Shown: in pieces, positions 491-63,806 of the stretch
Numbering within the stretch: position 1 is the first letter of the stretch
Layout of the letters: each line of letters opens with the position of its first letter
Origin: Candidatus Bathyarchaeota archaeon
Lineage (GTDB): Archaea > Thermoproteota > Bathyarchaeia > Bathyarchaeales > Bathycorpusculaceae
DNA: 64,000 bases
NCBI GenBank assembly: GCA_026014585.1
Contig: JAOZIA010000024.1
Span: 372,001-436,000 of the forward strand
Direction: 5' to 3'
The notes under the pieces: generated by a model
Told to the model about the DNA's origin: nothing
The model's database searches: none
Seen by the model: the letters and a program-made list of their open reading frames with translations, nothing else
Made by a program: the position numbers and the translations under genes

Positions 491-2683
<2,193 letters not shown>

Positions 2684-2686
2684 TCA

Positions 2687-2717
2687 AATAATCTTAAAAA
2701 AGTATTTAAGAATTATT
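2687..2717. promoter_or_regulatory. Palindromic operator between katG and perR-like gene
   Basis: An AT-rich inverted repeat, AATAATCTTAAA (2687-2698) and TTTAAGAATTATT (2705-2717), has arms that are complementary apart from one extra base and are separated by six bases. It sits between the divergent starts of katG (2662) and the regulator (2735), and TATA-like TTTAAG elements lie inside it about 25 bases before each start. Its AT-rich dyad character is like Fur/PerR boxes. Binding by the adjacent regulator is inferred. Confidence 0.55.
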
Positions 2718-2734
2718 ATTACCTAGTAAGGCAC

Positions 2735-3175
2735 ATGCAAAACTCACTGAAAAATGACTCTGCAATCATTGGGGCACTGCGCAGCAAAGGCTACAAAGCC
2801 ACACCCCAAAGAATCACCATCTGCAAAATCACACTGGGCAGCCGCGAACACCCCAACATCCAAAAAATCTACACAGAAACAAAAAAAGTCCACTCAACCG
2901 TTAGCCTAGCCACGGTTTATAGCACACTCAACATCCTAAAAGAAAGCGGGTTAATTCAGGAACTCAATTTTCCACAGGGACAAACCCGCTACGACCCATA
3001 CTTGGAACCTCACATTAATTTGGTGTGTTTAAACTGTGGCAAAATCCAAGACATAAACGAGCCCGCAGTAAAAGAAATAATCAAAACTGTTTCAACAAAA
3101 ACACAGTTTACTCCTACGACTCAACGTATTGATGTTTATGGTATTTGTCAACAGTGCTCTAAAAGTCAGAAGTAA
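2735..3175 (+). CDS. Fur-family transcription regulator, PerR-like
   Basis: A 146-residue winged-helix metalloregulator. The N-terminal half contains ATPQRITI and VSLATVYSTLNILKESGLI, the DNA-recognition helix region of Fur proteins; the C-terminal half holds two structural zinc CxxC pairs (CLNCGK and CQQC). The Asp right after CGKI (GKIQD) is a PerR-type regulatory-metal residue, and the order RYDPYLEPH..CLNCGKIQD resembles PerR more than Fur. I chose ATG 2735 rather than the longer frame from 2654 because the added residues are unlike the family and would cover the promoter; a TATA-like TTTAAG lies ~25 bases upstream, giving a nearly leaderless message. It is divergent from katG and probably represses it until peroxide oxidises the sensor. 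Confidence 0.82.
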   Translation: MQNSLKNDSAIIGALRSKGYKATPQRITICKITLGSREHPNIQKIYTETKKVHSTVSLATVYSTLNILKESGLIQELNFPQGQTRYDPYLEPHINLVCLNCGKIQDINEPAVKEIIKTVSTKTQFTPTTQRIDVYGICQQCSKSQK

Positions 3176-3314
3176 ATAGGATATTCCTTTTTTTGGAGTT
3201 GCTGGTTTTTGATTGGGGTTTAGTGTCGTTTTGTAAAATTTGTTTTTAGCTAACTATAAAAGCTACCGCTTCCATAATAAATTTGAGTTGACTACTTTTC
3301 AGGTTTGAGTTCTA

Positions 3315-4466
3315 ATGGAGAAAACGCAGTCTGCTCTGCAGATTTGTTCACGTTGCGTTCTGCCGAGTTCTTTTCCAAGGATAAACTTTGACGACAAGGG
3401 GGTTTGCTCGGTTTGCAGGGAATATGATAAGTCATGGGGTGATTGGAACACAGAAAAAAACCAAAAAAGCAAAATTCTTGAAAAAATCTGCAAAGACGCA
3501 AAAAACAAGCATAAAGAGTTTGATGCTCTGGTTCCTCTTTCAGGAGGAAAAGACAGCACTTACGTGTTATATGTTGCCCAAAAAAAACTTGGGTTAAACT
3601 GCCTTGCCTACACCTTAGACAACGGGTACCTATCACAACCCGCCAAAAACAACATTGAAAAAACCTGTAGAACCCTAGGCATTGAGCACCTATACTACGG
3701 TCTAGACCCAGACCTCACAAACAGGCTGTTTAACTTGTTCATTAAAAAAACGGGGTGGTTCTGCTCAGTTTGCATGCGCGCCATTCAAATGTCCACTTTC
3801 CGAATAGCAGACATGTACAAAATTCCCCTCATCATCAAAGGCAGTTCCATGCGTACAGAAATGCCGTTATCCCGAGAAATGTTTCAGGGAGGCGATCCCG
3901 CACATTTTCAAGCTGTTCTAGAAGGCGAACCAATTGCACGTGAATGTGGGCGCTTGTGTGATAGGGGTGCAAGTTTTCAGAGGTTGCTGGGTTACATGAT
4001 GTTTTTGCTCTCAGGACAGAAGAGACTGCGGTCTTATGCTTACTTTAACCTAGCAGGGTATGTAGATTGGGATTACAAAATAATTCAGGACACCATACAA
4101 AAAGAAGTCGAATGGACAGCCCCTGATGAAGCAGAACACATGGACTGCGCAATCCATCCCATACAAAAATACATTCATAACAGGCGATTTCCAACCCTAA
4201 AGATGAACAGGTTAACCTATGCAAGGCAAATCATGGCGGGAACAATGACTCGTCAAGAAGCAATGCAGAGGCTGGAAAAAGAAGAAAACACGCCCTGCCC
4301 TGAGAGCGTCATGAACATGTTTCTGGGCAATATTGACATGACACGCCAAGAGTTTGATGACTACATAGATATGGGTCCAAGGCATCTGCAGTATCATCCA
4401 GCCCCTAATCTTTCGTTGAGATTGGCAAAAAAGGTCTTTCCAATTCAAGATGCTGGTACGTACTAA
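3315..4466 (+). CDS. PP-loop ATPase, N-acetyl sugar amidotransferase-like
   Basis: A 383-residue member of the ATP-pyrophosphatase (PP-loop) family. Residues 11-34 hold four cysteines (CSRC...CSVC) of a small zinc site, residues 76-81 are the ATP loop SGGKDS, and a further CSVC pair lies near residue 150. This layout is that of the WbpG/PseA type N-acetyl sugar amidotransferases, which activate a sugar acetamido group with ATP so that ammonia can make an acetamidino sugar for surface glycans. Those enzymes work with a HisH-type glutaminase and a HisF-type channel protein; neither is next door, so the ammonia source is unknown. A different PP-loop thiolation or amidation role remains possible. 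Confidence 0.7.
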   Translation: MEKTQSALQICSRCVLPSSFPRINFDDKGVCSVCREYDKSWGDWNTEKNQKSKILEKICKDAKNKHKEFDALVPLSGGKDSTYVLYVAQKKLGLNCLAYTLDNGYLSQPAKNNIEKTCRTLGIEHLYYGLDPDLTNRLFNLFIKKTGWFCSVCMRAIQMSTFRIADMYKIPLIIKGSSMRTEMPLSREMFQGGDPAHFQAVLEGEPIARECGRLCDRGASFQRLLGYMMFLLSGQKRLRSYAYFNLAGYVDWDYKIIQDTIQKEVEWTAPDEAEHMDCAIHPIQKYIHNRRFPTLKMNRLTYARQIMAGTMTRQEAMQRLEKEENTPCPESVMNMFLGNIDMTRQEFDDYIDMGPRHLQYHPAPNLSLRLAKKVFPIQDAGTY

Positions 4467-4582
4467 ACGCTTACAACTAAGGCAAGCCTTTTCAAACGCT
4501 ATCTGCTCATGGTTTTGTTGCTGCAAAGAAAGCTATAGAAGCAGGAATAAACAGAATTGTGTAGCAAGGCAGGAAGCGTAGA

Positions 4583-5380
4583 TTGACCAGTATAGTTGCT
4601 TCAATAAAGCGTTTAGTAGCGTTTCTAATAGTGATTACAGTATCTGCTGTTGGCGCAATTTACATTTTCGACCTGTTTGTGGCTCAACCCATAAACCTTC
4701 CAACGTTGCTTCAGCAGTCATTTGACATAATCATAATCTTGGCGTTTTGGTTAACCGCAATCTTCCTGCTACTTAAACTAAAAAATCTCCTAACCCCGCA
4801 TGTGGGCACTCAGGTGGCAACAGCGCTTCAATTCGTAAGTCTCATAATATCCGTTATCATCATGAGCTTTGGCATTCTCGAAACGCTGGGGGTTTCCCCT
4901 CAGGCACTTTTGACTGGCGCGGGAATCATCAGCATCACCGTGGGCTTAATCATCTCCACTTTTGTGGGCGGCATCCTGTCTGGTGCATTAGTTTTCACAA
5001 CCTACAAATTCAAAGTAGGCGACGAAGTGCTCGTTAATAATGTCCCCGGAAAAATCAGTGACATGACTACGCTTGTAACCCGAATCCGCACAGACACAGG
5101 CATCATTAGCATCCCAAACAACGCCATCGCCTCAGGTGGTGTAATCATCACAGCAGTACAAAAACCACCCACAACACAAGAAACCAGACTACACTACACA
5201 GTAGATGACCGCGTAATTACCTCTTACAAATATGAGGAGGGCATAGTCAAAGAAATCACTGCATACCACACACGGGTTCTTTTGGATTCAGGAAAAGAAA
5301 TCATTTTCCTAAACAACAGCGTACTCTCAGGCGCCGTTCCAATAGCAAAAATAGCCTCTGCCTCAGAAGAGAGAAAATAG
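4583..5380 (+). CDS. Small mechanosensitive channel, MscS family
   Basis: A 265-residue membrane protein with four predicted helices (about 11-33, 48-66, 81-100 and 108-140). The last is Gly/Ala/Ser-rich and runs into the MscS beta domain: KVGDEVLVNNVPGKI, then IRTDTGIISIPNNAI (IPNN at 177-180), the hallmark of the family. MscS channels open under membrane tension and release solutes during osmotic downshock. The start is TTG at 4583 with a weak purine-rich site upstream; no ATG is suitably placed. The gene stands alone between the amidotransferase and the ABC exporter. Confidence 0.85.
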   Translation: MTSIVASIKRLVAFLIVITVSAVGAIYIFDLFVAQPINLPTLLQQSFDIIIILAFWLTAIFLLLKLKNLLTPHVGTQVATALQFVSLIISVIIMSFGILETLGVSPQALLTGAGIISITVGLIISTFVGGILSGALVFTTYKFKVGDEVLVNNVPGKISDMTTLVTRIRTDTGIISIPNNAIASGGVIITAVQKPPTTQETRLHYTVDDRVITSYKYEEGIVKEITAYHTRVLLDSGKEIIFLNNSVLSGAVPIAKIASASEERK

Positions 5381-5490
5381 CCCTTTTCTTAATCAGTACC
5401 CCTTAGCAGTACCAGTCCACCAAAAAATATTGACAAAGTCTTTAAATGCACTTTTAACCAACTAAGCGGTAAAAAGAGAGAGGGGTTATC

Positions 5491-6426
5491 ATGCGGAAGA
5501 CAGTTGTGGAAGTAAACGGCTTAGTTAAGCAGTACAAGGATGTACGGGCAGTTAACGAGATTTCCTTTGAGGTTTATGAAGGCGAAATTTTTGCTTTTTT
5601 GGGACCCAATGGTGCAGGAAAAACCACAACTGTCGAAATTTTAGAGTGTATACGCTCTTTAACAAGTGGTTCAGCCAAGGTTTTAGGGTACGACGTAACC
5701 AGTAGCGCGGAAGTTAAAGAAATCAAACGCAGAATCGGTGTACTCCCGCAAGAATACAGTGCCTTAGAAAAACTGACCGTGAAAGAAAACATTGAATTTA
5801 TCGGGGAAATGTACAAGACTCATCTGGACATTGACAATGTCATTGAACTTTTGGATTTACGAGACAAAACAAAAGCACGCTTTGAAAACCTCTCGGGTGG
5901 GCTCAAGCAAAGAGTTGGCGTGGCGGCGGCACTCATCAGTGACCCACAACTAATTTTTCTTGACGAACCCACAACAGGCTTAGACCCCAAAGCCAGAAGA
6001 GACGTTTGGAAAGTTATTGCTAATTTGAAAAAACTGGGTAAAACCGTGTTTTTAACCACTCACTACATGGAAGAAGCACAAACGCTTGCTGACCGAATCG
6101 CCCTTGTACAAAAAGGAAAAATAGCAGTCATCGGGTCACCCCAAGAACTCATAAGCAAATATGGCGGCTCAAAAACCCTAATCATAAAAGGCGGCACCAA
6201 AGAAATCACGCAGGAAATCAGCAAAAAACACCCCCACGTGAACATGAATGGCGACAGTGATGTTTTAATCAAAATTCCAAGCGCTGATGAGTTCTGGAAT
6301 GTTATGGCAACCTTAACTGAGATGAAACTGGACAAGGACATAGAAATCCAGACCCCAACTATTGAGGACGTGTTTCTCAAGATTACGGGTGGACGCATAA
6401 CTGATGAAGGAGAGCTCAAACAATGA
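5491..6426 (+). CDS. ABC exporter ATP-binding protein (CcmA/DrrA type)
   Basis: A 311-residue ABC ATPase with every key motif: Walker A GPNGAGKT (38-45), Q-loop VLPQEYS (about 84-90), signature LSGGLKQ (134-140), Walker B LIFLDEP (154-160) and the H-loop histidine (TTHYMEEA, His191). The C-terminal ~90 residues are the extension usual in DrrA-like drug or polysaccharide exporters. A ribosome-binding site GAGAGGGGTT precedes the ATG. The stop overlaps the start of the permease gene by four bases (ATGA), so the two are translationally coupled. The cargo cannot be told from sequence. Confidence 0.92.
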   Translation: MRKTVVEVNGLVKQYKDVRAVNEISFEVYEGEIFAFLGPNGAGKTTTVEILECIRSLTSGSAKVLGYDVTSSAEVKEIKRRIGVLPQEYSALEKLTVKENIEFIGEMYKTHLDIDNVIELLDLRDKTKARFENLSGGLKQRVGVAAALISDPQLIFLDEPTTGLDPKARRDVWKVIANLKKLGKTVFLTTHYMEEAQTLADRIALVQKGKIAVIGSPQELISKYGGSKTLIIKGGTKEITQEISKKHPHVNMNGDSDVLIKIPSADEFWNVMATLTEMKLDKDIEIQTPTIEDVFLKITGGRITDEGELKQ

Positions 6427-7688
6427 AATTCATAGCTGTCTTTAAAGCGGTTACCAAAAACTGGTTGCGGTCACGTTCAGGACTCTTCTTTAGCCTCATG
6501 TTCCCAATTTTGTTACTGCTGGTTTTTGGCGCAATCTTTGGCGGCATAGGCGGCGGTTCAACAAGCTACGGGCTTTACATACAAAACCTTGACACAACCA
6601 GTGATGGACAACCAACTGAAGTTTCAGACGCGTTCATTCAAGCGTTAAATAGCACTGAAACCTTCAGCATGACCCCTATTCCTGCAACCGCAAATGCTAC
6701 GGATTATGTTCGGGATTTGCTTGGACCTATGGGTGGAACCATGCGAATACTGGTAATTTCGGAGGGGTTCCAAGATGATTTAATTAATGGCACGCTTAAG
6801 GTTCGCTTGGGAATAATTCAAAGCACTCTAAACATGACCTACCAGTACTTCATACAGTACCTTAACAGTTCAGAGCAAGCCGCCTTGCAAGACGGATTAA
6901 ACCAGATGAACCAGTTTGACCAGTTATTCCCTGACACTAACGCCACCCTAACGATTATTCTGGACCCCTCAGACCAGTCAGGCGCCATAGTTCAAAACAT
7001 CATAACCAGCGTAGCAAACTCATTCAATTACCAAATGATAGGCGCAACTAATGTTATAACCTTCCAAGAAGAAGCAATCTCAACTACTCAATTCCGCACC
7101 GTAGACTTCTACATCCCAGGCATAACCGCAGCTTTCATCATGACCAACGGCATCATCGGCTTGACCTCTACTAACACGGAGTTTAAACGGCGTGGCGTAA
7201 TCAAACGGTTATCCATAACGCCTCTGACAAAGATGGATTGGGTAGTCGGCTGCATTCTTAGCCAGACATTGCTCAATGTTGTTTTGGCTTTTATCATGAT
7301 AGGGGTTGGCTGGGTAGTTTTCAGCGTGCAAGTTATTCCTGACCTCTACACGATACTGCTAATCTTTTTAGGTTCACTACTGTTTTCAGGCATAGGCATG
7401 ACCCTTGCAGGAGTAATAAAAGACATAGAAGCAGCCAATGCTATTGGAAACGCCATTGCTTTCCCAATGATGTTTCTTTCAGGAACCTTCTTCGCAATTG
7501 ACATGATGCCAAGCTACCTTCAAACCGTCTCCAAAGTATTGCCGTTGACGTACTTCTCTGAAGGACTCAAAGCCACAATGATAACCAAGTTCCCCGAAAC
7601 CATCTGGTTCAACATAATTATTGTGGGTGCATTGGCGGTTCTTTTTATCGTGATTGGCGCGTTGGTTACAAGATGGAAAGAGAAGTAA
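6423..7688 (+). CDS. ABC-2 type exporter permease
   Basis: A 421-residue membrane partner of the preceding ATPase. One helix near the N-terminus (about 20-40) is followed by a ~180-residue external domain and then five to six helices from about residue 225 to the end, with the stretch DFYIPGITAAFIMTNGIIGL opening the core. This is the ABC-2 membrane (YhgE/DrrB-like) arrangement with a large N-terminal loop. With the ATPase it would form a 2+2 exporter for a drug, lipid or glycan. No substrate gene lies nearby. Confidence 0.88.
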   Translation: MKFIAVFKAVTKNWLRSRSGLFFSLMFPILLLLVFGAIFGGIGGGSTSYGLYIQNLDTTSDGQPTEVSDAFIQALNSTETFSMTPIPATANATDYVRDLLGPMGGTMRILVISEGFQDDLINGTLKVRLGIIQSTLNMTYQYFIQYLNSSEQAALQDGLNQMNQFDQLFPDTNATLTIILDPSDQSGAIVQNIITSVANSFNYQMIGATNVITFQEEAISTTQFRTVDFYIPGITAAFIMTNGIIGLTSTNTEFKRRGVIKRLSITPLTKMDWVVGCILSQTLLNVVLAFIMIGVGWVVFSVQVIPDLYTILLIFLGSLLFSGIGMTLAGVIKDIEAANAIGNAIAFPMMFLSGTFFAIDMMPSYLQTVSKVLPLTYFSEGLKATMITKFPETIWFNIIIVGALAVLFIVIGALVTRWKEK

Positions 7689-7971: not shown

Positions 7972-9105
7972 ATGGCTGAAGAAAATAACAACGGCGAAAT
8001 GGTAGTTACACCCTGGGAAGTCAAGGGCAAAGTAGACTATCAACGCTTAATCAAAGAATTCGGAACTCAACCCCTCACACCCCAACTGCTCTCTCGCGTA
8101 GAAAAACAAGCAGGCAAACTCCACCTGCAGCTGGAACGAGAAATTTTCTTCAGTCACCGAGACTTAGACACCGTGCTTGACCTCTACGATAAAGGCACCA
8201 AGTTTGTGCTCTATACGGGACGCGGGCCAAGTGGGCCAGTCCACATTGGACATCTTGTACCATGGATTTTCACGCTGCACATGCAGCAGAAATTCAAAAC
8301 ACGGCTTTACTTCCAAATTACTGATGATGAAAAATACCTAATCAACAACGACCGCGGTCTTAATGAAACTGAAAAGTGGAGCTACGAAAACGCACTGGAC
8401 CTTATCGCTTTGGGTTTCAAACCCGAGGATACCTTCATCATTTATGACACTAAAGACATCGACTTACTCTACGACATCACCTTAGAGGTAGCGCGCCGCA
8501 TCACCTACAGCACTGCCCGAAGCACGTTTGGCTTCCAAGACAGCACCAACATCGGTTGGGTGTTTTGGCCAGCAATCCAAGCAGCCCCTTGTTTTATTCA
8601 CAAAAAACTTACAGGAGAAAACGTACCAGCCCTAATCCCCGCAGCCATTGACCAAGATCCCTACTGGCGAGTAACCCGCGATATCGCCCAAAAACTGGGC
8701 TACTACAAACCCGCACAAATTCACTGCCGATTCCTCCCCGGCCTTGGCGCTGGCGGAAAAATGAGTGCGTCCATGCCTGAAACCAGCATCTTCACCTTGG
8801 ATGAGCCAGATGTTGTGAAAAAGAAGATTTGGAACGCTTTTACAGGCGGCAAAGGCACAGCGGCGGAACAAAGAAAAGAAGGCGCCAACCCAGAAGTATG
8901 CAGCATATTCCAGTATTACTATTATTTGTTTGAAGAAGACAGCAGCAAACTTGCCGAACGGGAACGTAAATGCCGAGAGGGTGAGATGCTTTGTGGTGAA
9001 TGTAAAAAAGACATTGCTGAAAAACTCAACAAGTTTCTTGAGGCACACAGGGACCGCCGAGAAAAAGCCAAAGATATCATCGAGCAGTTCCACATTAAAC
9101 GCTAA
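7972..9105 (+). CDS. trpS: Tryptophan--tRNA ligase
   Basis: A 377-residue class I aminoacyl-tRNA synthetase that charges tRNA-Trp, whose gene is also in this window (60.4 kb). The ATP-binding motifs are GPVHIGHLVP (HIGH at 91-94) and KMSAS (263-267). The N-terminal ~70 residues, including TPWEVKGKVDYQRLIKEFG, are the extension of archaeal/eukaryotic TrpRS, and the length fits that group rather than the shorter bacterial enzyme. The ATG start follows an AT-rich promoter region that carries repeat copy A about 120 bases upstream. Confidence 0.95.
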   Translation: MAEENNNGEMVVTPWEVKGKVDYQRLIKEFGTQPLTPQLLSRVEKQAGKLHLQLEREIFFSHRDLDTVLDLYDKGTKFVLYTGRGPSGPVHIGHLVPWIFTLHMQQKFKTRLYFQITDDEKYLINNDRGLNETEKWSYENALDLIALGFKPEDTFIIYDTKDIDLLYDITLEVARRITYSTARSTFGFQDSTNIGWVFWPAIQAAPCFIHKKLTGENVPALIPAAIDQDPYWRVTRDIAQKLGYYKPAQIHCRFLPGLGAGGKMSASMPETSIFTLDEPDVVKKKIWNAFTGGKGTAAEQRKEGANPEVCSIFQYYYYLFEEDSSKLAERERKCREGEMLCGECKKDIAEKLNKFLEAHRDRREKAKDIIEQFHIKR

Positions 9106-9211
9106 TTTTTTGTTTACATCATCATCTTGATTTGGTCAGTTGTGACTTTTACCTTTATATCGGTGCATACGTTGCTTGCTTAAAACATAAATTAAAAATT
9201 TAGGCATATTC

Positions 9212-10750
9212 ATGACCAACCTAACAAGCAACCGCAAGAACATAGCACTCATTGTCCTCTGCACTGTGCTATTTGTCATCGCAGTCGCAGACACAGTCCT
9301 AAACTTAGCGCTACCAAACATATCAGGCAACCTAAACGCCACAGCCAGCCAACTACTCTGGATAGTAGACATTTACCTTCTTATTGTTGCCACACTCCAA
9401 ATCGCTTTTGGCTCCATCGGAGACCACTTCGGACGAAAACGCCTCCTCCAAATCGGACTTGTAATTTTTGGTATCGGCTCGTTAGGTTCAGCATTTTCTA
9501 ACACAGCAATCTTGCTTGTCTTCTTCCGAGCCATCACAGGGTTAGGCGCAGCTATTATGATGCCCTCAACCTTGTCTATTTTGACGGATGTGTTTCGTGA
9601 ACCCAAAGAACGCGCTAAAGCAATAGCCACATGGTCTAGCGTGTTTAGCATCGGCGCAGGATTTGGTCCCATAATCGCAGGGTACTTGCTTGAAACATTC
9701 AATTGGACAGCAGTGTTTTACCTAAACATTCCCATAGTAATTGTAGGGTTAATTGGAAGCTACTTTTTCCTTCCAGAATCTCGAGGTACTCACGGCGCCA
9801 AACTCAACTATGCAAGCATCAGTCTCTCCGCAGCGGGCTTGGTTGCTTTTGTTTATGCCATCATCACGGGCGGGGAGTATGGGTGGCTTTCCTTGGATGT
9901 GATAGTTTCGTTTGCGATTTCAGTTGTAATGATTATTGGGTTTGTGCTCTGTGAAAAAATGTCTAAAAACAACATGGTCCCATTGGCTTTCTTTAGAAAC
10001 ATGTCCTTCACAGGCTCCATCATCTCGTTGACTATCTGCACATTTGCTATGATGGGCTCCTTTTACTTCTTTAGCCAATACTTCCAATCCATACAAGGCT
10101 TTAGCGCACTTGAAACGGGACTTGCTATGCTACCACTTAACGTTTTTGTTTTCATATTCACGTACATGTCTGTGCCTTTAGACCGCAAAATCGGCACCAA
10201 AGCCACAGTCAGCTTAGGCTTAATCGCTATGGGCTTGGGCTTGCTACTGTTTAGCTACACCGCCGAAGTCACAACCTCATACGCCATATCCTTTACTGTG
10301 CTGTTTCTCATTGCAGTTGGTCTTGGCTTTGTCATGAGTCCATCAACCAACGCCATCATGAACTCCATCCCCTCAACCCACGCAGGCATCGGCTCAGCCA
10401 TGAATGACACTACACGCCAAATCGGCGGTGCCTTGGGTATTGCAGTTTTAGGGTCACTGCTAAACTCAAGATATATCGCAACAATTGATTCCTCAGCAAC
10501 CATAAACAACCTATTTAGCGAAACAGCTGAACTAATCCGAAAAAGCCTACAAAGCGCGCTTATCACAGCAAACCAGTTACCCAGTGAAGCTGCCTCACAA
10601 GTTATTGATATTGCAAAAGGCGCATTTGTGGCAGGGTTACATGAAGCCGTGTTTATCGGAGCTATAATCATGTTCGTGTCAGCGGCTGTAGCGGTGGTTC
10701 TGATTCCTAAGCGAACCAAACGAGCAGTTGAACCAGAACCGGGTTATTAA
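9212..10750 (+). CDS. 14-TM major facilitator exporter (DHA2/EmrB-QacA type)
   Basis: A 512-residue transporter with about 14 hydrophobic helices. It has the MFS loop signature GDHFGRKRLL after helix 2, the Asp-bearing first helix region (VADTVLNLALPNI), and motif C-like GAGFGPIIAGYLLETFNW in helix 5, all typical of drug:H+ antiporters of the DHA2 group. The final helix is followed by a basic tail. Such proteins pump lipophilic compounds outward using the proton gradient. It is a single-gene unit; no regulator is adjacent. Confidence 0.88.
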   Translation: MTNLTSNRKNIALIVLCTVLFVIAVADTVLNLALPNISGNLNATASQLLWIVDIYLLIVATLQIAFGSIGDHFGRKRLLQIGLVIFGIGSLGSAFSNTAILLVFFRAITGLGAAIMMPSTLSILTDVFREPKERAKAIATWSSVFSIGAGFGPIIAGYLLETFNWTAVFYLNIPIVIVGLIGSYFFLPESRGTHGAKLNYASISLSAAGLVAFVYAIITGGEYGWLSLDVIVSFAISVVMIIGFVLCEKMSKNNMVPLAFFRNMSFTGSIISLTICTFAMMGSFYFFSQYFQSIQGFSALETGLAMLPLNVFVFIFTYMSVPLDRKIGTKATVSLGLIAMGLGLLLFSYTAEVTTSYAISFTVLFLIAVGLGFVMSPSTNAIMNSIPSTHAGIGSAMNDTTRQIGGALGIAVLGSLLNSRYIATIDSSATINNLFSETAELIRKSLQSALITANQLPSEAASQVIDIAKGAFVAGLHEAVFIGAIIMFVSAAVAVVLIPKRTKRAVEPEPGY

Positions 10751-59907: not shown

Positions 59908-59998
59908 TTCTTCCTGTTTGTTCCAAAAACAACATCACAAATTTATAAAGCTATTCCAAATTGCTCGAGATTTCAAGGTTAAATTATTGTTAAAATGT

Positions 59999-60113
59999 TG
60001 CCAGCTTTCCCAAGTTCACGTGGCCTAAGACCACACTACCGTTGGGAACGGAACACGGTTTAACTTCTGAGTTCGGTATGGGATCAGGTGGAACCCGCGC
60101 CCTCTGGCCGGCA
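59999..60113 (-). rRNA. 5S ribosomal RNA (stand-alone)
   Basis: On the minus strand TTGCCGGC pairs with GCTGGCAA to close the molecule (ends are approximate by 1-2 bases). The loop A/B region CCTGATCCCATACCGAACTCAG and GGTAGTGTGGTCTTAGGCC are universal 5S segments. A TATA-like TTAATAAAGG lies about 27 bases upstream (60133-60142). No 16S or 23S gene is near, so the 5S gene is separate here, as in a number of archaea. Confidence 0.92.
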
Positions 60114-60288
60114 AACAAAATCCTAATGATAGGCTTTCCTTTATTAACCTTTAGTTTTTCAGAAGCCATTTTACGTGGAAAAACCCCACTTCCGCAAAGA
60201 TACAAAAATGGCAACGATGGAAGGCTTGCTGAATTTTCAAACCTGAGCAATAATTAAGCGTTTGTTTTTGGACTAAAATTTTGTTTAG

Positions 60289-60372: not shown

Positions 60373-60516
60373 TGGTGGGGCCGACCGGATTTGAACCGAT
60401 GACCTACGGGTATCTTCACCCAGCTCCAGAATTATATCATTCCCCCAAATTGGGAGTCATATTACCCGAAGCTATTTCTGGAGCCCGTCGTCTTAACCGT
60501 GCTGGACTACGACCCC
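60373..60516 (-). tRNA. tRNA-Trp (anticodon CCA) with 66-nt intron
   Basis: On the minus strand the acceptor GGGGTCG (60510-60516) pairs with CGGCCCC (60377-60383). The anticodon stem ACGGG/CCCGT encloses CTCCAG-intron-A, anticodon CCA (Trp). The intron is 60412-60477, after position 37 as usual for archaea. Its 3' part TTCTGGAGC can pair with exon/intron GCTCCAGAA over nine bases, including the anticodon, as in bulge-helix-bulge folding. Discriminator A and CCA are encoded. Archaeal tRNA-Trp introns often carry a box C/D guide; here only ATGATAT (box C-like) is visible and no canonical CTGA. Confidence 0.92.
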
Positions 60517-60699: not shown

Positions 60700-61689
60700 A
60701 TGACAAACCAACAACACACCCAAACACTAAACAAATTAGAAGAACTAACAAGCAAAGCAGACCCCAAAATCCTAAACCTATTTCCAAGCCTCAACTCAAA
60801 CACCCCAAAAAGCCACAACGAAAAAGTCAAAGTTCTTTGGCGTTTGGCATTTTTGAAAACAATAGGCAAAAAAGGGAAAGCAACTTCAGCAGATTTACGC
60901 ACAGAGCTAAAACCCTCGCGTCCAAGAACAAGCAGAACCCTGACAGAACTATCAGCCCTGTCACTCATTAAAGCAGAAACAGACGAAAAAACATGCACAT
61001 ACACGCTTACAACCTCTGGGTTTGTTGCTTTAGTTGCCTTTGGAGAGTTTCAAGATTGGACAAAAATCAAATCAGCCTTAAGGGCACCTCAAAGAAAAAA
61101 CGACCCCTTAGCATACGCGCTTTTAGTGGCAGGATTCTGCGAAAATAAAGCTGACAGCATACATCAGACATTGTGCGGTTATGCAGCCCAAGGAAACATC
61201 ATAGAAAATACTCCAACAGATACCACAGCAGAGTCCATATTACTTTTCCACCGCCGAAAACTACAACTTAACAGCCCAGTTCCACCAACCTACTTGAGCG
61301 TGTTCAAAGAGTTTACGACAAAAGGTTTCCAAGAAGTCTTCCAAATGCTCATAGCCGCCATTAAACCAACGGCAGAGGACTATAATTGGCTTATAGAATT
61401 TTTCGCTGAGGTCTCTGAATTCTATTTTGACCCCGCCAGAGTAGCCTACGTTAATCTTCTACGGGAAAACCAGCCACTACAAGCAAACCTTGAAGCATTC
61501 AAAAAAGCCCAAGACCAACAAATCAAAAAACAAGACGGAAACTTGGAAGTTACCTTTACCATTCCCGGCGCGGGCATGTCAAAAATTGATTCAATGCCAC
61601 CTCACCTACGAGCGGTAGGTATGCGGCTTATACTTGAACCAGCTAAATTCATAAATAAAGAACTGGCCAACTTTTTCTGGATCAGCTAA
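60700..61689 (+). CDS. Winged-helix domain protein, hypothetical
   Basis: A 329-residue protein. Residues ~45-115 form a winged helix (KVLWRLAFLKTIGKKGKATS, ADLRTELKPSRPRTSRTLTEL, then the wing CTYTLTTSGFVALVA). The C-terminal 210 residues are helical without a recognised motif. I start at ATG 60700; the frame is open from 60499, but that region is the tRNA-Trp gene. A TATA-like TTTATAG is at 60660-60666. It converges on the DUF2589/trypco2-like operon, six bases away, and is a candidate regulator or partner of that system. Confidence 0.65.
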   Translation: MTNQQHTQTLNKLEELTSKADPKILNLFPSLNSNTPKSHNEKVKVLWRLAFLKTIGKKGKATSADLRTELKPSRPRTSRTLTELSALSLIKAETDEKTCTYTLTTSGFVALVAFGEFQDWTKIKSALRAPQRKNDPLAYALLVAGFCENKADSIHQTLCGYAAQGNIIENTPTDTTAESILLFHRRKLQLNSPVPPTYLSVFKEFTTKGFQEVFQMLIAAIKPTAEDYNWLIEFFAEVSEFYFDPARVAYVNLLRENQPLQANLEAFKKAQDQQIKKQDGNLEVTFTIPGAGMSKIDSMPPHLRAVGMRLILEPAKFINKELANFFWIS

Positions 61690-61695
61690 AAAAAA

Positions 61696-62208
61696 TTATT
61701 TTTTGGGATTGTCTGAGATTGATGAGTCTTTTGTTAGTGCTTTTATGGTGTTTAGCAATTCTTGAGAGGGTGGGGTAGGAACTACTGTTATTCGGATTGT
61801 GCTTGAGGTTTCAGTTTTGTAGGAGTACATGTTTTGGTATTTTGCGTCGATGGCGTTGGTTTTGAAGAGGTAGGGTGAGCGGTCACGGATGGTTTTTCCT
61901 TTGGTATCTGAAGCGGTTGGGTTGTTTGTGGCGGTTAGGGCGGTTTTGAGTTCAATTGTGCTGCTTTGGATGCTTAGCAGTGTTGGTAGTACACCAAAGG
62001 CTAAGGCGTTACCTTTGATTTCACGTTTTTCAGCTTTGCCACCGTTGTTTTTTGTGTAACCAATAGTTACATCTGTGTCGGCTAGTTCTTCAATGCCTGC
62101 AATGAAGGTCTTGTTTGCTTCGTTTTGGGAGTACACCATTGCCAAAAGCAAATCACGAACCATGTCTCCAAGAGTAACGTTTTCTAAAGCAGTTGACAGG
62201 GTTGTCAC
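61696..62208 (-). CDS. DUF2589-like protein 2
   Basis: A 170-residue protein, paralog of the first gene of this operon. Shared elements: VRDLLLAMVYSQNEANKTFI (amphipathic helix), NALAFGVLPTLLSIQSSTIE (hydrophobic strand pair) and a C-terminal NMYSYKTETSSTIRITVVPTPP. This order, helix with A.A.Q.., F.Y-type strand, 'LP.L.I....I', and a final strand with S.KY.I.V.A/P.P, resembles DUF2589, a bacterial family of unknown function. It starts with GTG directly after the stop of the upstream gene, so translation is coupled. Family assignment is from pattern recall. Confidence 0.55.
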   Translation of the reverse strand: MTTLSTALENVTLGDMVRDLLLAMVYSQNEANKTFIAGIEELADTDVTIGYTKNNGGKAEKREIKGNALAFGVLPTLLSIQSSTIELKTALTATNNPTASDTKGKTIRDRSPYLFKTNAIDAKYQNMYSYKTETSSTIRITVVPTPPSQELLNTIKALTKDSSISDNPKK

Positions 62209-62964
62209 CTAAGCGCGTGTTCTTTCTGTGATTATTTTAGCTGAATCGATCCAACGTTTAGTATTCTCAATTGACAGCTGATAGTTTTTGGGAACCTTGA
62301 CTTTGCCCGATTTTATTGCGTTATCCATTATTTTTGTAAGTTCCTCAGGAGAATACTGGGCAAGTTTTTCTTTGGAGTCTATCTTGCTTGCAACAAGTAA
62401 TTCTGCAACCTGTTCATCAACGCCTTCGACACCTGCAATGTCGCTTTTAACCATCAGTTTTGCCATGCTTATGAATTCAGCGGCTTTTGTTTGAGTCACA
62501 TTTGCCTTAGCTAATTGTTCTGCAGAAGCAAGAGCTAGATCACTTATCGTCTCAATACCTATGGCGCGTAGTCTTTCCCCGATAACTGTGCCTATGCCTT
62601 CGATTATTTCAACGGGTTTTCTATTGCTGGATGGTTTTACTTCTAACGGAATAGGTCGCAAAGTCAAGTTCACTGTGCTCATAAGGTTTGGGTCAAGTTC
62701 ACCCTGTTTTGTTGGCAGAGCAAGCAGGGTTTTTTCGCCTTCTTGGGTTACAACAGCTTTTAGTTGTATTGTAAAGTCGGCAAGCACAAAAGTTGTAGAG
62801 CGCTCCTGAGCCATTGCATAATCATGGACACGTAGCAGGTCTTTTTGAAGAGAGGTTATCAAGGTTGCGGAGTCTACTTTTGAAGTAAACACTTTGGGGT
62901 CTACTATTTTTTCGGCGGTTACGCTTGGATTGACAATTTTTTTAATATTTTCATTACCTGACAT
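62209..62964 (-). CDS. Trypco2-like domain fused to helix-hairpin-helix (DUF4332-like) domain
   Basis: A 251-residue protein. Residues ~30-110 are a helix followed by strands (LITSLQKDLLRVHDYAMAQE, TFVLADFTIQLKAVVT, STVNLTLRPIP), the order of trypco2 ('trypsin co-occurring') domains: helix, F.....I.L...V, then V.L.L.P. Residues ~118-210 hold two HhH-type units (IIEGIGTVIGERLRAIGIET, ISDLALASAEQLAKA, VEGVDEQVAELLVASKI) as in DUF4332. A ribosome-binding site AGGTG precedes the ATG. The HhH part could bind DNA or protein; trypco2 domains are known from NTP-dependent conflict systems. The function here is inferred. Confidence 0.55.
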   Translation of the reverse strand: MSGNENIKKIVNPSVTAEKIVDPKVFTSKVDSATLITSLQKDLLRVHDYAMAQERSTTFVLADFTIQLKAVVTQEGEKTLLALPTKQGELDPNLMSTVNLTLRPIPLEVKPSSNRKPVEIIEGIGTVIGERLRAIGIETISDLALASAEQLAKANVTQTKAAEFISMAKLMVKSDIAGVEGVDEQVAELLVASKIDSKEKLAQYSPEELTKIMDNAIKSGKVKVPKNYQLSIENTKRWIDSAKIITERTRA

Positions 62965-62972
62965 AACTTCAC

Positions 62973-63236
62973 CTAATTTTGTTTTGGTTTAAGTTTGAAT
63001 GTTAGTTTGATTGTGCTTTCCCCTTTTTTGCCAAAATAGTTGAGTGTTTGGGCGTCTGAGGAAACAATTTTTAATTCACTATCTTTGATGACAAAGCATT
63101 TTATATCCATTTCAATTTGGGGGATAACAAATTGGGAAGGCTGGTCTTTGCTGGCGTCCAATGCCTGATTTAAACCAACGTTTGCTTCGCTTATTACTCC
63201 AGAGATTAATGAAAAAAAAGAAAGAAAGGTGGTCAT
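62973..63236 (-). CDS. Small trypco2-like protein
   Basis: An 87-residue protein alike in order to the N-terminal domain of the next gene: helix (SGVISEANVGLNQALDASKD), strand QFVIPQIEMDIKCFVI, and end STIKLTFKLKPKQ versus STVNLTLRPIP in the neighbour. It is a stand-alone version of that domain. It begins five bases after the stop of the preceding DUF2589-like gene and ends eight bases before the fused protein, so all four genes form one operon. No catalytic residues are seen; it probably acts as a binding module. Confidence 0.55.
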   Translation of the reverse strand: MTTFLSFFSLISGVISEANVGLNQALDASKDQPSQFVIPQIEMDIKCFVIKDSELKIVSSDAQTLNYFGKKGESTIKLTFKLKPKQN

Positions 63237-63241
63237 GTTGA

Positions 63242-63760
63242 TTACGCTGGTGTTGCTGGTGTAGCTTCAGGTTGGGGTGTTGTGTCTTCGGTGATTTTTT
63301 CGATAGCTTTCATCAACGGGGCTGGTGGGGGGGCTGGCGCAACTTTTATTTCAAGAAAGCTGGAAGCTTCAACAGAGTATGAGTATTTGCTTGAGTATTT
63401 TGCGTCCACGGATGCTGAGAAGAAGGCCCAACCGCCTTTAGCATGCATCTTGACTTCTGCTTCTCTTGTTTTCTGCATTGTTATGACCATCTTGATTTGG
63501 ATGGTGCCGCTTTGGATTTGTAGCAGTGTGGGGAGAATTCCGAAGGCTAATGCGTTGCCGCTGATGGTTGTTTTTGTGCTGGATGAATCGCCTGCTTTTG
63601 TGTAGCTGAGGTTGATGGGGGTTTCAACTAGGTCTTGTACGCCGTTTATGAATGATGTGTTTGCGTCGTTTTGTGCTTCGACCATTGCTAATAGCAAGTT
63701 TCGTATCATCTGGTCAAATGGCACGCTTGCCAGTTCAGTTCCAATAGAAAGGGCTGACAT
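63242..63760 (-). CDS. DUF2589-like protein 1
   Basis: A 172-residue protein, first gene of the operon and paralog of the last one. IRNLLLAMVEAQNDANTSFI, a strand INLSYTKAG, the hydrophobic pair NALAFGILPTLLQIQSGTIQ and the end SSKYSYSVEASSFLEIKVAP are shared with the other copy and resemble DUF2589. The Pro/Ala/Thr-rich tail (PAPPPAPLMK.., PQPEATPATPA) differs between the two. A TATA-like CTTAAATAG lies ~40 bases upstream, at about 63797-63805. No signal peptide; a cytoplasmic assembly is likely. Confidence 0.55.
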   Translation of the reverse strand: MSALSIGTELASVPFDQMIRNLLLAMVEAQNDANTSFINGVQDLVETPINLSYTKAGDSSSTKTTISGNALAFGILPTLLQIQSGTIQIKMVITMQKTREAEVKMHAKGGWAFFSASVDAKYSSKYSYSVEASSFLEIKVAPAPPPAPLMKAIEKITEDTTPQPEATPATPA

Positions 63761-63794
63761 GATGTTTCCTCAATTTTCATAAGTCAACAGTCTT

Positions 63795-63806
63795 ACTATT
63801 TAAGAG
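63795..63806 (-). promoter_or_regulatory. TATA element of the four-gene operon
   Basis: On the minus strand CTCTTAAATAGT sits about 37-45 bases before the ATG at 63760, consistent with an archaeal TATA box and a short leader. The remaining 63807-64000 region is AT-rich and shows no gene. Confidence 0.5.

Follow-up and report, generated by a model that had tools for sequence, protein, structure and literature searches.

A four-gene Bathyarchaeota operon of DUF2589-like and Trypco2-like proteins and the multi-subunit assembly it may encode

A four-gene operon in the window analysed here, a stretch of 64,000 nucleotides from a Candidatus Bathyarchaeota genome, specifies proteins related to the DUF2589, Trypco2 and DUF4332 domains. 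Our leading, still tentative reading is that its products assemble in the cytoplasm into one non-enzymatic hetero-oligomer, a scaffold in which the third protein acts as adaptor. The operon may also represent a widespread and previously undescribed archaeal and bacterial multi-subunit assembly, built on a repeated DUF2589/Trypco2 domain, with repeated duplication inside the operon, exchangeable reader modules (helix-hairpin-helix, HhH, or PASTA) carried by a single subunit and a winged-helix regulator of its own in Bathyarchaeota; we hold this possibility with some reserve. To our knowledge no function has been assigned to the catalogued domains DUF2589, Trypco2 and DUF4332.

The operon and its protein families

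The four genes follow one another head to tail, all in minus-strand orientation, from 63760 to 61696, with gaps of 5, 8 and 0 bases. Gene A (P0001; 63242–63760, ATG start) encodes a DUF2589-like protein of 172 residues, gene T (P0002; 62973–63236) a Trypco2-like protein of 87 residues, gene C (P0003; 62209–62964) a protein of 251 residues with a Trypco2-like N-terminus and a DUF4332/HhH C-terminus, and gene B (P0004; 61696–62208, GTG start) a second DUF2589-like protein of 170 residues. These open reading frames and gaps lie exactly where an earlier note on this DNA had placed them. Its description of two alternating paralogous pairs was not borne out, as the order A-T-C-B sets the DUF2589-like pair outside and the Trypco2-like pair inside. 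A TATA-like box, CTTAAATAG, occurs about 40 bases 5′ of the gene A ATG (63796–63804, minus strand), and a Shine-Dalgarno-like GAGG, identified from the sequence and an upstream alignment, at 63768–63771 (minus strand). Both elements have counterparts upstream of A in several Bathyarchaeota relatives.

Comparison with the orthologous operon of genome G023 gave dN and dS values of 0.05 and 1.0 for gene A (whose ortholog is 91% identical), 0.14 and 2.1 for T, 0.20 and 2.0 for C, and 0.31 and 1.3 for B. Judged by these rates, each gene is under purifying selection. Because the operon recurs in other Bathyarchaeota and dN is well below dS for every gene, the four reading frames are not chance occurrences; the kept gene order and the TATA-like box likewise speak for a real operon. 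Recent acquisition of the operon as foreign DNA was rejected on its GC content (0.42, against 0.44 for the window) and on codon usage that departs by about 1.3 SD or less from that of genes of like size. Translation-factor, ABC-transporter and DUF1512 genes are among its neighbors in the window.

The assignment of gene A to DUF2589 held in part. P0001 aligns with Pfam PF11655 from end to end (residues 14–157 to positions 1–152 of 154), but at 13.8 bits (E = 0.077) it does not reach the curated cut-off of 23, and P0004 had no match to this model. DUF2589 was matched by 5 of 56 relatives of A and of the short DUF2589 proteins (S), with a best E of 3.8e-5. The Trypco2 likeness of T is of the same kind: P0002 scored 12.7 bits against PF19631 (E = 0.15; curated cut-off 24.2, not reached), while 5 of 9 of its relatives matched, the best at E = 1.5e-4. 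No Trypco2 match at E≤0.001 was obtained in the window's own genome. The N-terminus of P0003 had no direct match to Trypco2 and is linked to it via T only. The C-terminal part of P0003, in contrast, gave a match well above its threshold, residues 123–243 scoring 54.3 bits against DUF4332 (PF14229; cut-off 23.2, E = 2e-14), in line with the HhH assignment of the earlier note. HHH_5 was also matched within this tandem HhH region, which spans residues 115–250 (62215–62622, minus strand). What distinguishes this DUF4332 protein is that the domain is joined to a Trypco2-like one within a DUF2589 operon.

P0001 and P0004 are paralogs (about 40% identity across ~160 residues, E ~1e-40). The second paralogous pair proposed in the note, P0002 and the N-terminus of P0003, is supported at the profile level only, and both proteins carry the S-T-(V/I)-x-L-T ending that it described (ESTIKLTFKLKP in P0002, MSTVNLTLRPIP in P0003). 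The domain concerned covers residues 30–107 of P0003 (62644–62877, minus strand). We compared profiles of T, of the N-terminal domain of C, and of short and full DUF2589 with hhalign, using 200 column shuffles. T matched the N-terminal domain of C (P = 8e-5) and short DUF2589 (3e-5), with 0 of 200 shuffles as good in either case, and the short and full DUF2589 profiles matched each other at 2e-22. The comparisons of T with full DUF2589, and of C with either DUF2589 profile, were not significant alone, and a common origin of the four proteins is therefore a transitive inference. By way of T and S, then, DUF2589, T and the N-terminal domain of C would form one helix-plus-strands superfamily.

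In both AlphaFold2 models, viewed without superposition, a helix is followed by strands. In P0003 (mean pLDDT 75) a helix at residues 32–52 is followed by four strands at 58–105 and, from residue 125, by the helical HhH bundle; P0001 (mean pLDDT 68.8) has a long helix at 15–46 and then strands, with low confidence at residues 97–132. The P0001 model, which is only moderately confident, had no fold match in the PDB, and no solved structural relatives of A or T were found. Two unnamed entries of the viral library BFVD, A0A516MP19 and A0A516L4Y6, matched the P0001 model (E values of 1.1e-5 and 1e-3). PHROGs gave weak matches only for the operon proteins, the best on the HhH part of P0003.

Distribution and duplication of the gene set

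Within the window's class, 11 of 257 genomes have a relative of A. In the class to which the Methanosarcinales genome G260 belongs the figure is 57 of 238 sampled genomes (34 of 375 in the phylum of G260), and in the Clostridial samples it is 1 of 291 genomes for the class and 2 of 398 for the phylum. A single plasmid among 72,556 carried such a relative, which speaks against a plasmid module, and a phage or viral origin was set aside since neither the phage collection nor the viral contigs held a relative. A core of A, at least one further S, T or A protein, and C on one strand was present in 39 of 41 homologous regions, which were picked by their A protein and, several being closely related, are not independent. 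Homologs are thus clustered. The core extends over Bathyarchaeota, Methanosarcinia, other Halobacteriota and Bacillota. Two regions depart from this core: one degenerate locus (L056/L011), and a betaproteobacterial Sphaerotilus plasmid on which two short proteins of 165 and 278 residues resemble T and C on visual inspection. The suggestion of an archaeal system was accordingly too narrow, the set being found also at the Bacillota loci L012 and L146.

The arrangement differs by lineage. Bathyarchaeota have A-T-C(-B), the winged-helix gene accompanying the four-gene form. The Methanosarcinia-type operon (A-S-C-D) keeps the same core order, with homologous A and C, but differs in that C carries a coiled coil before and PASTA repeats after its Trypco2-like domain, sometimes with DUF4332, its fourth gene (D) is not a second A, and the winged-helix gene is lacking. 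The Bacillota type comprises an HhH-S-PASTA protein, C, A1 and A2 together with TPR genes, and occurs also in three genomes of the archaeal class (G343, G344 and G346). Outside Bathyarchaeota, C is extended by coiled coils at its N-terminus and by PASTA repeats, which number from one to many; several of these homologous proteins bear PASTA repeats only and lack DUF4332. One genome of the window's class (G237) has a Methanosarcinia-type operon, which points to horizontal transfer.

Several features of individual loci were recorded alongside. The operon adjoins the ribosomal protein gene cluster in eight Methanosarcinia loci (L087, L088, L089, L090, L097, L099, L100 and L102), a fixed position in contrast to the scattered Bathyarchaeota sites. 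The D protein, of 80–93 residues, follows C in most Methanosarcinia operons (L087 5657–5920, L093 5290–5571, L101 and others), and its L087 copy had no Pfam match. L089 encodes a C-related protein of 1526 residues with many PASTA-like repeats (2081–6661), in an archaeon with no evident reason for peptidoglycan sensing. A metallophosphoesterase-like protein with repeated segments that look crystallin-like by eye directly follows A-T-C in L054 (5090–7069), and a protein with Metallophos and PG_binding domains is encoded at the Bacillota locus L012 (12116–14185). In L091, ORFs that by eye are transposase-like (8452–9662) break the operon between S and C.

In a tree of 41 A, B and S proteins, A and B of the window fell in one Bathyarchaeota clade (support 100/100), with B as a subclade. 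Because of this common clade, and because the Bathyarchaeota loci L053 and L054 have a single A in the arrangement A-T-C, the ancestral Bathyarchaeota operon was probably A-T-C, and B is probably a duplicate of A that arose within the operon and evolves at a higher rate. In the Bacillota-type operons A underwent a duplication of its own. A further separate duplication probably took place in the halo/Sphaerotilus-type operons, less certain as that pair is long-branched. At the degenerate locus (L011 7974–8484, equivalent to L056 8385–8816) a fusion that carries a one-base frameshift joins the N-terminus of A to the body of B; both T and C have been lost, and the winged-helix gene is kept. Either recombination between the A and B paralogs or misassembly seems the likely cause.

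The winged-helix neighbor

The earlier note reported a winged-helix gene converging on the operon. It is present and convergent (P0005; 60700–61689, plus strand), but its start is most likely the ATG at 60700 and not the GTG at 60499, because the latter falls within a tRNA gene (60376–60516). Its matches to helix-turn-helix models are weak, and its dN and dS against G023 are 0.29 and 2.3. Eight Bathyarchaeota loci have the gene next to the operon, in six of them convergent and in two (L048 and L049) beside the operon start. Among 32 congeneric genomes it is present in the same four as the operon (4/4 against 0/28), a coincidence with a chance of 1/35960 if the genomes were independent, which they are not fully; one further congeneric genome has a marginal match of 78 residues. 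From this linkage we infer that the winged-helix protein may control transcription of the operon.

The tRNA gene, on the minus strand just past the winged-helix gene, appears to be interrupted by an intron; a 5S rRNA gene lies beyond it (59996–60115, minus strand). L056 likewise has a long tRNA match (7051–7187) beside its winged-helix gene. With a tRNA so placed at both loci, integration at a tRNA end was considered, but the 3′ end of the window tRNA points away from the operon.

What the operon may encode

The columns conserved at ≥80% in the A and S proteins (P14, Q30, G74, I87, E88, K90, M91, A120, Y122, Y126, S134 and P144) contain no obvious catalytic set and look structural, and no enzyme domain was found in the operon proteins. 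An enzyme need not show an obvious set of this kind. From these observations, and because the partners are mostly copies of the same domain, we favor a scaffold. The helix-plus-strands domain that A, T, C and B would share is proposed to associate with itself from protein to protein, and the repeated duplications within operons would mark a shift from homomers to heteromers. C, which varies by lineage in its coiled coil, PASTA repeats and/or DUF4332, could be the adaptor, or interchangeable reader, whose C-terminus would fix the assembly to a target through HhH in the window and PASTA repeats elsewhere.

A different role for C would be to bind DNA or RNA with its tandem HhH, leaving A, B and T as accessory subunits of a nucleic-acid-associated complex. 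We think this unlikely. The HhH parts of the P0003 model resemble the NusA C-terminus, the RadA N-domain and LigA, none at E≤0.001, likeness to DinB was seen as well, and the sequence has a canonical GIG hairpin; HhH folds, however, also serve in protein binding, and no repair or replication gene recurs near the operon in the 41 regions. Such a complex is a possible fit for the HhH-bearing variants; it would leave the C proteins with PASTA repeats only unexplained.

The earlier note had connected the operon with NTP-dependent conflict systems. Trypco2 is the trypsin-co-occurring domain 2 (PMC7159879) and is treated in papers on these systems (PMC7159879, PMC10907252). The operon could accordingly be an adaptor or sensor module of a VMAP-type system whose trypsin, MoxR and vWA partners were lost or separated, and the resemblance of T (and, weakly, of one C domain) to Trypco2, the patchy distribution within the window's class, and the gene exchange across distant lineages (G237, L084–L086) agree with this. 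Against it, partners of the NTPase, peptidase or vWA kind (trypsin, MoxR and STAND ATPases included) do not recur in the 41 regions, and no trypsin-like peptidase gene was found among the window neighbors scanned. The PADLOC defence models had no match to P0001–P0004, and where a Methanosarcinales C protein matched the PD-T4-6 models, the matches fall on its PASTA repeats and do not identify a known defence system. Moreover, the core of the gene set is DUF2589, which is absent from the conflict-system paper, and in several Methanosarcinia the operon keeps a constant place next to the ribosomal operon, in a housekeeping synteny. Since no such partner recurs and no defence profile matched, a conflict module is less likely than a scaffold, and we regard it as rather improbable. 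The proposed link to conflict systems was thus not supported, while the other suggestion of the note, a separate system without an attached trypsin, MoxR or STAND ATPase, agrees with what surrounds the homologous operons.

Least probable, and in our view quite doubtful, is that DUF2589 subunits build a filament, sheath or particle in which C serves as tape or stalk, in a storage, cytoskeletal or secreted-particle role: the small beta-rich paralogous subunits, the coiled-coil, multi-PASTA C proteins of up to 1526 residues, the TPR partners at Bacillota-type loci and the two viral-database models that matched the model of P0001 (E 1e-5 and 1e-3) suit it, but genes for tails, sheaths or secretion do not recur in the 41 regions and the phage and viral-contig collections contain no relative.

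No paper describing this gene system was found in the literature searched, where mention of DUF2589 was limited to a passing one, of a run of short DUF2589-related genes in Archaeoglobus fulgidus (AF0414–AF0417) that is up on lactate (PMC3949148); we liken it to the present operon by its published description.

With DUF2589, Trypco2 and DUF4332 brought together as one conserved gene set, probably derived from one ancestral domain, they become a single testable system. With the operon present in 57 of the 238 genomes sampled from the class of G260, genetic work on it may be feasible in methanogens. For the conflict systems themselves, this grouping suggests that Trypco2 may be a borrowed structural adaptor and not a domain specific to defence.
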